From the IMG/VR virus record IMGVR_UViG_3300034073_002131, positions 34,029-98,028 of that record: a stretch of DNA of 64,000 bases. One strand, 5' to 3'. This DNA comes from a virus. Of the stretch, positions 48,697-52,339 are shown piece after piece (within the stretch, counting starts at the first letter, position 1; each line of letters opens with the position of its first letter). The notes under the pieces are model-generated. The model was not told the DNA's origin, did no database searches, and was given only the letters and a program-made list of their open reading frames with translations. Position numbers and translations under genes: made by a program.

Positions 48697-48746
48697 TCTT
48701 TTTGTGGCGAGTGCATGGGGCGCTTGCCCGAACTAGGGAAACTGTC

Positions 48747-49073
48747 ATGGCTGAAAAAACCGTGAACTACACTGCGGAACAAACCGCGAAACTTGTGGCC
48801 GACTATCAAGCCGGTGTAACCGTGGAATCAATTGCGGAAGGGTTGGGCAAATCAGTTCGAAGCATCGTGGCGAAACTGTCACGCGAGGGTGTTTACCAGA
48901 AAAAGGTTTATACCACAAAAACGGGCGAACCCGTTCAGAAAAAGGATATGACAGCCGACGCAATCGGTCGAATCTTGAACCTTTCGGAAAGCGATACCGA
49001 TTCGCTCACCAAAGCGAACAAGCGTGCTTTGAAAGCGATTTTCGAAGCGCTTGCAAACTCGAAACCCCTGTAA
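48747..49073 (+). CDS. Small HTH-like protein, family copy 2
   Basis: 108 residues from ATG 48747, preceded by AGGGA. AEKTVNYTAEQTAKLVADYQ, SVRSIVAKLSREGVYQKK and DSLTKANKRALKAIFEAL are almost identical to copy 1 at 44394; the two are the closest pair of the four. The basic linker between the domains is KTGEPVQKKD. Confidence 0.75.
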   Translation: MAEKTVNYTAEQTAKLVADYQAGVTVESIAEGLGKSVRSIVAKLSREGVYQKKVYTTKTGEPVQKKDMTADAIGRILNLSESDTDSLTKANKRALKAIFEALANSKPL

Positions 49074-49845: not shown

Positions 49846-50154
49846 ATGACTGACAAAGTAATGAACTATACCCCTGAACAGGTTCAGGAACTGGTCCAGA
49901 AGTATCAGCAAGGCGTTAGCGTTGAGCAACTGGCCGAGCAAGTAGGTAAATCCGTGCGTTCGGTGGTTGCTAAGCTGAGCCGCGAGGGTGTGTATGTGGC
50001 TAAGACTCGGAACACACAGGCGGCCCGAGTCACCAAAGCTGAGCTGGTAGAGCGCATCGCCCGAGTATGCGATCGTAATAGTGAACAGTTTGAAAGCCTA
50101 GAAAAAGCAAATCAGGATGTTTTGACCCGCCTGGTCGAAGTGCTCAAAGCCTGA
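49846..50154 (+). CDS. Small HTH-like protein, family copy 3
   Basis: 102 residues from ATG 49846 with GGAGAA upstream. KVMNYTPEQVQELVQKYQQG, SVEQLAEQVGKSVRSVVAKL and SREGVYVAK keep the HTH-like core; the C-terminal helical half (AELVERIARVCDRNSEQFES) diverges from copies 1 and 2. Its upstream region is rich in repeats and promoters, which suggests tight control. It is followed by the long non-coding RNA. Confidence 0.75.
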   Translation: MTDKVMNYTPEQVQELVQKYQQGVSVEQLAEQVGKSVRSVVAKLSREGVYVAKTRNTQAARVTKAELVERIARVCDRNSEQFESLEKANQDVLTRLVEVLKA

Positions 50155-50180: not shown

Positions 50181-50209
50181 TTGCGGCCTCCACCTAAACA
50201 GTGTATAAT
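50181..50209 (+). promoter_or_regulatory. Promoter of the long non-coding RNA
   Basis: TTGCGG (50181-50186), spacer 17, TATAAT (50204-50209) preceded by TG. Transcription should start near 50216, at the foot of a 12-bp helix. Confidence 0.75.
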
Positions 50210-50602
50210 ATTATTTATAGTTTGGGAAGGGCGATATAGATCGCACAAACAGAGTCCACTTAGCCAACTACAAGTGTACATACCTAAGTATTGGACTCAA
50301 GTTTGATTCCCAAACTATCTACTATACTTTATTACTAGGGCGACAGCGGTCACAGCGATATACTACTGCTATGTGATACGTCTTAATTGTGGAGAACTAC
50401 ATGACCGAGCCACAGCCCCACTCTCAGAAAGGCAGCAGTTAGTTACTGCTAGCAGATGGTAATATTGGTCTGTAGTTTTATAATGTCTGGCTCTGCTGGC
50501 GCTTGAGGCTAGTATGGGGTATCAGTAAATACTCCAGAACACAATATAGCGAGCAACCAGACCCTAAACTAGAGCAATCCCAACCATCGTTGCTGCTTTT
50601 CC

Positions 50603-50695
50603 CCTATTCCTCTGATGAGCTCACCGAGAGCGAAACCCAAACCCGAAAACTGGTGCCCCATGCCCAGCAGACTACGGTTTAGGGTCAGGAATTGG
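50603..50695 (+). ncRNA. Type I hammerhead ribozyme
   Basis: All core elements are present: stem I ATTCCT (50606-50611) pairs with AGGAAT (50687-50692), extended past a T-T mismatch by CC/GG; CTGATGA (50612-50618); stem II GCTC (50619-50622) with GAGC (50628-50631) and loop ACCGA; GAAA (50632-50635); stem III ACCC then AAACC (50635-50643) pairs with GGTTT, one bulged A, GGGT (50676-50685); cleavage nucleotide C50686, so the site is GTC. Predicted cut between 50686 and 50687. All invariant core bases, including the 10.1 G-C 11.1 and 15.1 A-U 16.1 pairs, fit. It would cut the long RNA into about 470 and 112 nt. Confidence 0.85.
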
Positions 50696-50767
50696 TCCTT
50701 TCACTTCCCGGTCTGCCAGGACGCTAAACTGTGCAGGGACGGCACAACCCTAAAAGTGCCTAGTCAA

Positions 50768-50797
50768 GCCCACCAGTGCAAACTGGTGGGCTTTTTT
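50768..50797 (+). terminator. Rho-independent terminator of the long RNA
   Basis: GCCCACCAGT (50768-50777), GNRA-type loop GCAA, ACTGGTGGGC (50782-50791), then T6. Confidence 0.9.
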
Positions 50798-50817
50798 ATT
50801 TGAGGTTAGGCGCCCCT

Positions 50818-50847
50818 ATTATACAGTGCTAAAGCAATATGTGTCAA
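50818..50847 (-). promoter_or_regulatory. Leftward promoter antisense to the long RNA
   Basis: Minus strand TTGACA (50847-50842), spacer 18, TATAAT (50823-50818) preceded by TG. It starts about 10 nt beyond the long RNA's terminator and points back through it; no minus-strand gene lies downstream for several kilobases. Confidence 0.6.
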
Positions 50848-51022: not shown

Positions 51023-51334
51023 TTAGGGTCGGTTATTCTTGGATAATTCGCGTTCGATGACCTCTAAGACACCTTTATTGACCTTTTCTAGACTTTCAAG
51101 CAGTTCAAGGTTCATGTTGAGCAGCAAGGCAATCCGTTCGATATATTCCGACTTTTTAACCGGGACCTCACCACGCTTGTTTAGGTACTGTTTTTTCTGG
51201 TACACCTCGAGCGAGCTGAGCTTGGCAATTATGCTCCTGGTTGGGACCTGGAGCTCTTGAGCCAGCTCCTCCACGGGGACCCCAGCCCTATATTGTTGTA
51301 CTAGACGGTCAGTGATTTCTTTAGTATATTTCAT
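51023..51334 (-). CDS. Small HTH-like protein, family copy 4
   Basis: 103 residues from ATG 51334. MKYTKEITDRLVQQYRAGVP, then VEELAQELQVPTRSIIAKLS and SLEVYQKKQYLNKRGEVPVK keep the family core, with more divergence than the other three copies and on the opposite strand. It follows a 260-residue gene by 4 nt and is probably its operon partner. Confidence 0.72.
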   Translation of the reverse strand: MKYTKEITDRLVQQYRAGVPVEELAQELQVPTRSIIAKLSSLEVYQKKQYLNKRGEVPVKKSEYIERIALLLNMNLELLESLEKVNKGVLEVIERELSKNNRP

Positions 51335-51338
51335 GTTG

Positions 51339-52121
51339 TTAGTCGTCCCAGGGCATATCTGCAACTTTAACGTGTTTTGGACCCTCAACCAGAGCACTTG
51401 CAAAAATCTCATCTGGTACTAAGGGTTGGGGCATCCTGTCCCAGGTCCACGGGTCTAGGATTAGGTAGGGTGTTCGAAGCTGTGGATGGCAAACCCAAAT
51501 TTGCGTCAACATGGTAAGTACAAGTTTAGGCACACTACGCCAAGGCTCCGCTAGCCCAGTAAGTTGCCAAGTTGTAAGTGCACTTTTATACCTACCCTGT
51601 TTTTGGCCAGTTTTGTATAACAACCCTTGCTGCCTGAGCTCAACTAACTCCTGGGACCCTAAATCGCACAGGTGTGGGTTCTGGCGAGCCCACAGTAGGC
51701 ACTCATATAAATCTTTGGAGATCACACGGTCTAGACCGATTAGCGGCCAGCTCTGGTATGGAACTCCCCGATCTCGTTTTTGTGCTAGCATGATAGTAGG
51801 AGCTAGTGAGCTCCAATTTACCGAACCAGGATCACTTTGACGCCGGACTAGGTGGCTGCGATTTACTCGATTTACTAGCCTCCACAAGCCCAAGTCCCAA
51901 TCGCTGCAAATATTGATACGGAGGGTTTTAGGAATGTCTACCACACCATTAGGATCTAAGATAAGATTCCAGCGGGTATAGTGTGCCACGATTTGAGGCC
52001 ACAGCCAATCTTCTTTTAGCTGTAGCTGTTGTTCCGCAACCCAAACCTCCAACACCTTAGGGTCAGTTGTATTAGCGATTTCATGTAGTGGGATTGCTTC
52101 CAGCTTATTTAGTTTTTGCAT
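51339..52121 (-). CDS. Hypothetical protein, 260 residues
   Basis: Starts at ATG 52121 (MQKLNKLEAIPLHEIANTTD). It is Trp/Leu-rich (KEDWLWPQIVAHYTRWNLIL, DPWTWDRMPQPLVPDEIFAS) and mostly helical. Not recognised. It shares an operon with an HTH-like gene and is preceded by a structured leader of about 230 nt, so its expression may be regulated at the RNA level. Confidence 0.65.
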   Translation of the reverse strand: MQKLNKLEAIPLHEIANTTDPKVLEVWVAEQQLQLKEDWLWPQIVAHYTRWNLILDPNGVVDIPKTLRINICSDWDLGLWRLVNRVNRSHLVRRQSDPGSVNWSSLAPTIMLAQKRDRGVPYQSWPLIGLDRVISKDLYECLLWARQNPHLCDLGSQELVELRQQGLLYKTGQKQGRYKSALTTWQLTGLAEPWRSVPKLVLTMLTQIWVCHPQLRTPYLILDPWTWDRMPQPLVPDEIFASALVEGPKHVKVADMPWDD

Positions 52122-52176
52122 CGAGTTTTTGTGTAAAAATTGGGGGTATAAAAATATATAATAATTCTTTAAAAAA

Positions 52177-52339
52177 TAAACAATTCGCCAACCTATTAAG
52201 TTGGTAGTGATTAACACCTCTAGTTTTAAAAACAACTGCACTAGGCTTACTGGTCCTCTGGGTCCCTCGCGAAACGTCGCCAGGTCCTGCATAGCTTTGT
52301 GCAGTTGTTTTAAACTAGGGTTTAATCACCAATTGTTTA
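52177..52339 (-). ncRNA. Structured leader RNA candidate upstream of the 260-residue protein
   Basis: Nested helices: TAAACAATT (52177-52185) with AATTGTTTA (52331-52339); hairpin CCAAC/GTTGG (52188-52204); GTGATTAA (52207-52214) with TTAATCAC (52322-52329); CTAGTTT plus AAAACAACTGCAC (52220-52241, 2-nt bulge) with 52299-52318, 20 bp in all; inside, CTGG/CCAG (52250-52283) and GCGA/TCGC (52269-52280). Promoter and downstream gene put it on the minus strand as a 5' leader. It could be a riboswitch-like or protein-binding element. It does not match a riboswitch class I know. Confidence 0.6.

Follow-up and report, generated by a model that had tools for sequence, protein, structure and literature searches.

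Hammerhead ribozymes are common in phage sequences, where their role is mostly unknown. The locus described here raises the question of whether a hammerhead-like motif in a protein-free region of a phage genome is a genuine ribozyme, and what its cleavage would do to the RNA that contains it. The window (the whole 64,000-nt stretch of DNA that was analyzed) is part of a 98-kb IMG/VR virus contig, and the phage terminase is about 49% identical to Vibrio T5-like phage terminases. Based on the observed sequence, predicted fold, conservation, covariation and modular architecture, it is likely that a genuine type I hammerhead serves as the processing site built into a modular and protein-free RNA beside a D5-like gene in a T5-like phage lineage.

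Identification of the hammerhead

The sequence-only reading had placed a complete type I hammerhead at 50603-50695, composed of a six-pair stem I, CTGATGA, a four-pair stem II, GAAA, a bulged nine-pair stem III and GTC at 50684-50686. This was borne out, with every element read directly at those coordinates. The elements are listed together with the upstream gene that served as family marker:

49846..50154, +, D5-like DNA-binding protein gene (102 aa), upstream neighbor and family marker, outside the RNA (PHROG 323/1725 matches)
50606..50692, +, type I hammerhead ribozyme, from stem I to stem I (reading, folds, descriptor, homologues, covariance model R3)
50606-50611 and 50687-50692, +, stem I, 6 bp, ATTCCT / AGGAAT (direct reading)
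50612..50618, +, catalytic core strand CUGAUGA, with G8 at 50617 (direct reading; homologue comparison)
50619-50622 and 50628-50631, +, stem II, GCTC / GAGC, with loop ACCGA (direct reading)
50632..50635, +, core GAA (G12 A13 A14) at 50632-50634 and A15.1 at 50635 (reading; homologues)
50635-50643 and 50676-50685, +, stem III, nine pairs, ACCCAAACC / GGTTT-A-GGGT, with A50681 bulged (direct reading)
50644..50675, +, stem III arm, unusual, containing an inner helix (fold; L016 has one compensatory change)
50684..50686, +, cleavage triplet GUC, with C50686/A50687 as the expected point of cleavage (direct reading; homologues)

Judged from its core, its stems and their order, the catalytic motif is a type I hammerhead. 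The CUGANGA and GAA core, the A15.1-U16.1 pair and an NUH triplet (the GTC) are all present, and three helices surround the core with the RNA ends exiting via stem I (folds, RNAalifold and alignment). The three-way junction is the minimum-energy fold of a 101-nt piece and is also contained in that of the 585-nt presumed transcript. A descriptor comprising CTGAYGA, stem II, GAAA, and stems I and III gave one match in the window and none in 300 dinucleotide shuffles (both strands, relaxed stems included), and a looser, stem-free pattern was observed once in the window against an expectation of 0.17; a chance match was thereby ruled out.

The Rfam covariance search that had been proposed as a check went against the reading, as no hammerhead family reached its gathering cut-off. 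The window scored 17.3 bits with Hammerhead_HH9 (below the cut-off of 52), L137, a member of the window's sublineage, scored 18 bits with the type I family RF00163 (cut-off 34), and another relative, L196, scored 23.5 bits with the type III family RF00008 (cut-off 48.5). The Rfam hammerhead models probably miss the window because the stem III arm is unusually long, and the gathering score sets what these models, which have a short stem III, detect; the mechanism does not depend on it. A covariance model (R3) built solely from relatives outside the window's sublineage matches the window with 44.3 bits and an E-value of 6.6e-11 in 180 kb, the E-values of our covariance models being rough as a result of short calibrations. 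The match to a further model (R1) does not constitute independent evidence, since R1 was trained with the window included. Overall, the motif resembles the type I hammerhead of Rfam (RF00163, clan CL00010) in its CUGANGA/GAA core, its three stems in type I order and its GUC site, but differs in having a stem III arm of about 50-65 nt, in being embedded in a large structured RNA, and in scoring below the Rfam cut-offs at the loci tested.

Homologous hammerheads and covariation

Alignment of the upstream D5-like gene led to 80 related loci, and the same ribozyme is found downstream of this gene at 45 loci including the window (38 distinct sequences). Because the homologue screen demanded CTGA[TC]GA and CGAAA, along with minimal pairing of stems I and III, these features are partly built in; stem II covariation and a GUC at every site were not dictated by it. 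The core strand is kept in all 38 distinct sequences, except for U or C at position 7 (CTGA[TC]GA having been required), and the GTC cleavage triplet is likewise present in 38/38. RNAalifold recovered the junction unguided, and 6 of its 12 pairs carried two-sided changes. When the structure was supplied, such changes were counted in 8 pairs and 45 cells, against 0 of 500 shuffles. The downstream gene at 51339-52292 and RNA patterns led to the window's sublineage (L010-L017 and L137). It comprises eight distinct hammerheads, among which L137 has two double changes in stem II and L016 has one in the inner helix of stem III. A hammerhead located in a phage non-coding RNA, as the sequence-only reading had it, is therefore strongly supported by sequence, fold, conservation and compensatory changes.

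More divergent members were added by R1 (L171, L193, L189/L190 and L203), with one further member each in the records behind L199 and L204. There appears to be an extra U between A9 and stem II in the hammerheads of L171, L183, L185, L189, L192 and L193; those of L185 and L192 carry CUGAAGA, and the cleavage triplet appears to be GUA in L189 and L203.

In most relatives stem I has 3-4 bp, and isolated minimum-energy folds contain the full junction in only 17 of the 38 distinct sequences, so that activity would depend on tertiary contacts. Type I hammerheads make such a contact between stem I and loop II; loop II and the flanks of stem I look conserved across the main family. The stem III arm was considered as a conserved aptamer: RNAalifold on the sequence alignment gave no shared inner helix within it, while individual folds contain an arm with shifting registers.

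Nearly full-length records mostly contain one hammerhead copy each, and the single contig with two copies has one near each end, as terminal redundancy would give. A circular RNA produced by two flanking hammerheads was rejected on these grounds.

The collections covered were IMG/VR, INPHARED and GTDB genomes, the last by one exact pattern that would miss divergent members and that gave no match. Among isolated phages there was no near record by DNA and none for the D5-like protein; the isolated-phage matches listed in one DNA search fell on the tRNA of L196, not on the ribozyme RNA. That dozens of related uncultured phages have the ribozyme at the same place suggests a new family of phage RNAs, putatively cut in two by their own ribozyme.

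Architecture of the host RNA

The RNA that contains the hammerhead would have its own promoter and terminator, with transcription predicted to start near 50216:

50181..50209, +, presumed promoter TTGCGG-17-TATAAT (consensus match; below promoter-scan threshold)
50217..50318, +, domain A, a long hairpin (fold; alignment)
50337..50418, +, domain B, a conserved pseudoknotted domain (20-sequence alignment; model R2)
50420..50599, +, domain C, variable and structured, separating domain B from the hammerhead (fold; aligned to L010-L017 and L137)
50560..50569, +, GACCCTAAAC, complement of the substrate strand 50677-50686 that might form a competing helix (reading; energies; distribution)
50693..50765, +, 3' part remnant (alignment; relatives)
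50766..50799, +, intrinsic terminator, 12-bp stem followed by a T-run (terminator analysis; relatives)

Across relatives, the host RNA family is modular, protein-free and about 0.4-1.2 kb in length. In the alignment, domain A is present in L010-L017 and absent in L137, while domain B is absent from L010-L017. Outside the ribozyme, the structure with the strongest support is domain B: among 20 sequences, 97.5% of cells are paired and seven pairs have changes on both sides, two of these in a helix that crosses another, forming a pseudoknot. In the window, the predicted pseudoknot pairs 50347-50349 with 50405-50407. Model R2 scores domain B of the window at 78.9 bits, the window sequence having been included in its training. 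Domain B without the hammerhead was found in L180 and L186-L188, which indicates that the ribozyme is not indispensable to the RNA. A second, weaker domain B match lies between domain B and the hammerhead in L150 (6771-6843; E = 1e-5) and L165 (6638-6712; E = 0.011), suggesting that domain C may be a diverged repeat of domain B.

Beyond the ribozyme, the 3' part is a remnant of 73 nt in the window and of 2-3 nt in L010-L017, and reaches about 700 nt in other relatives; an alignment of the 3' part from 19 sequences was too gappy for comparative structure. In relatives where a terminator was seen, it is located 3' of the cut. The hammerhead had been described as lying about 110 nt before its terminator, a distance that holds for the transcript end (the T-run ends about 113 nt past the cut) and not for the terminator stem (about 80 nt). 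A coding function for this region was rejected: a 62-aa ORF with its ATG inside the core loses its frame in L016 through an insertion of 1 nt, and its sequence diverges past stem I.

No Rfam family covers the host RNA, and in 12 loci searched at Rfam curated cut-offs a tRNA was the sole match; a description of the RNA was not found in the largely open-access literature searched. The host RNA apparently constitutes a new family, one that carries a conserved pseudoknot of its own.

In many relatives, a short separate module with a promoter-like sequence (GACAGTCGGGAAGGGCTTAA ... GACTGTC) is found just upstream of the RNA (seen in L148, L155, L159 and L184, upstream of domain B). A perfect TTGACA-18-TATAAT promoter (50818-50847, minus strand) lies just past the terminator, facing back over the RNA; it is common to all sublineage members checked and to L155, L159 and L184, is near-perfect in L183 and L196, and suggests an antisense transcript. 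The RNA gene is surrounded by three paralogous D5-like DNA-binding protein genes (48702-49073, 49846-50154 and 51023-51412), and its place among such regulator genes suggests a possible link to the phage transcription program. The motif GACCCTAA / TTAGGGTC is clustered around this locus on both strands (50560, 50686, 50869, 50928 and 51030); it includes the hammerhead substrate strand, and an inverted pair flanks the next terminator.

Proposed processing and alternative readings

Hammerhead cleavage, which depends on Mg2+, yields a 5' RNA with a terminal 2',3'-cyclic phosphate and a 3' RNA with a 5'-OH. In the window, the nascent RNA would fold into the hammerhead and cut itself after C50686. 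The 5' product would be an RNA of ~470 nt comprising domains A, B and C and ending in a 2',3'-cyclic phosphate, with the ribozyme remaining on it after the cut; the 3' product would start with a 5'-OH at 50687 and consist of a terminator tail of ~110 nt. As stem I is short, the 3' piece should leave easily.

The stretch between cut and terminator measures 7-8 nt in L138-L145 (the nearest relatives of the sublineage), about 80 nt in the window, and several hundred nt in most others. In the sublineage, where the 3' RNA would be the terminator tail alone, the outcome would be 3'-end trimming, and the suggestion of programmed 3' processing made in the sequence-only reading is plausible for the window's sublineage (the terminator hairpin being 7-8 nt past the cut in L138-L145). 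Applied to the whole family, this suggestion is too narrow: the 250-720 nt of protein-free RNA past the cut and before the transcript end in most relatives make the general role look like the separation of two RNA parts. Beyond the observations on sequence and predicted structure, we infer that the RNA is transcribed, that it is cleaved and that its products are used. We give roughly even weight to the broader proposal of an undescribed class of large modular phage RNAs (0.4-1.2 kb, with a pseudoknotted 5' domain) in T5-like phages, in which an integral hammerhead would make two functional RNAs.

An active hammerhead might instead regulate or destabilize the RNA rather than mature it, with the upstream GACCCUAAAC pairing with the substrate strand GUUUAGGGUC and keeping the ribozyme off until refolding. 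The 10-bp complement is kept in all sublineage members (with a G-U pair in L137/L146), and the two states are close in energy in some members, L011 favoring the competing helix; however, in the window the hammerhead state is 7 kcal/mol better, and the competing segment is absent outside the window's sublineage. We therefore regard this reading as unlikely for the locus, and a general switch based on the competing helix was rejected, the upstream complement being limited to that sublineage.

It is more doubtful still that the hammerhead exists for tRNA maturation, from an ancestral order of tRNA-Glu followed by the hammerhead, with the tRNA since lost from the window. A tRNA-Glu(UUC) does precede the core by 5-9 nt in L157, L183 and L196 and by about 100 nt in L147 and L166, and HDV-like theta ribozymes adjoin phage tRNAs (PMC10879173); however, most family members have no tRNA at this site, and since a type I hammerhead cleaves at its far end, no tRNA 3' end is created. 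That the motif is an inactive relic, or that something else such as a role as a DNA-binding site preserves it (GTTTAGGGTC is repeated nearby), is very improbable. The substrate strand does match a motif found repeatedly around the locus, and no Rfam cut-off is reached, but a DNA site leaves the intact core together with the compensatory stem II changes unexplained (33-38 distinct sequences).

For the preferred reading, in which the hammerhead is a processing site, the fixed place of the ribozyme in an RNA that could be transcribed, cut and knocked out as a unit renders the phage use of a hammerhead testable, and naturally occurring members that have or lack the ribozyme, the 3' part or the tRNA provide a ready comparison series.

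Among known systems, Perreault et al. (2011; PMC3088659) described intergenic hammerheads in phages and prophages, including PaP3 and tandem arrangements, and proposed that they cut long phage transcripts. The present hammerhead shares the phage intergenic setting, but those flank protein genes singly or in series, whereas here a fixed single copy lies inside a protein-free RNA with its own terminator. Phage hammerheads are thus already known; the difference lies in a single copy kept at a fixed place within a large RNA family that is protein-free and covarying. Theta (HDV-like) ribozymes (PMC10879173) are also small phage ribozymes, and the present one is directly beside a tRNA in some members; they belong to another ribozyme class, however, and the theta cleavage site adjoins the tRNA, while here it is on the far side of the ribozyme. 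A theta identity was rejected on the presence of the hammerhead core and on the position of the tRNA, where present, opposite the cleavage site. GOLLD, ROOL and OLE are likewise large, highly structured, protein-free RNAs of bacteria and phages (PMC12286853); identity with these was rejected, as there was no Rfam match at gathering, nor at relaxed thresholds in the stretches tried. Separately, many unrelated viral contigs (L019, L020, L023, L030, L068, L135 and others) were observed to carry type I hammerheads as series of several copies spaced a few hundred bases apart.
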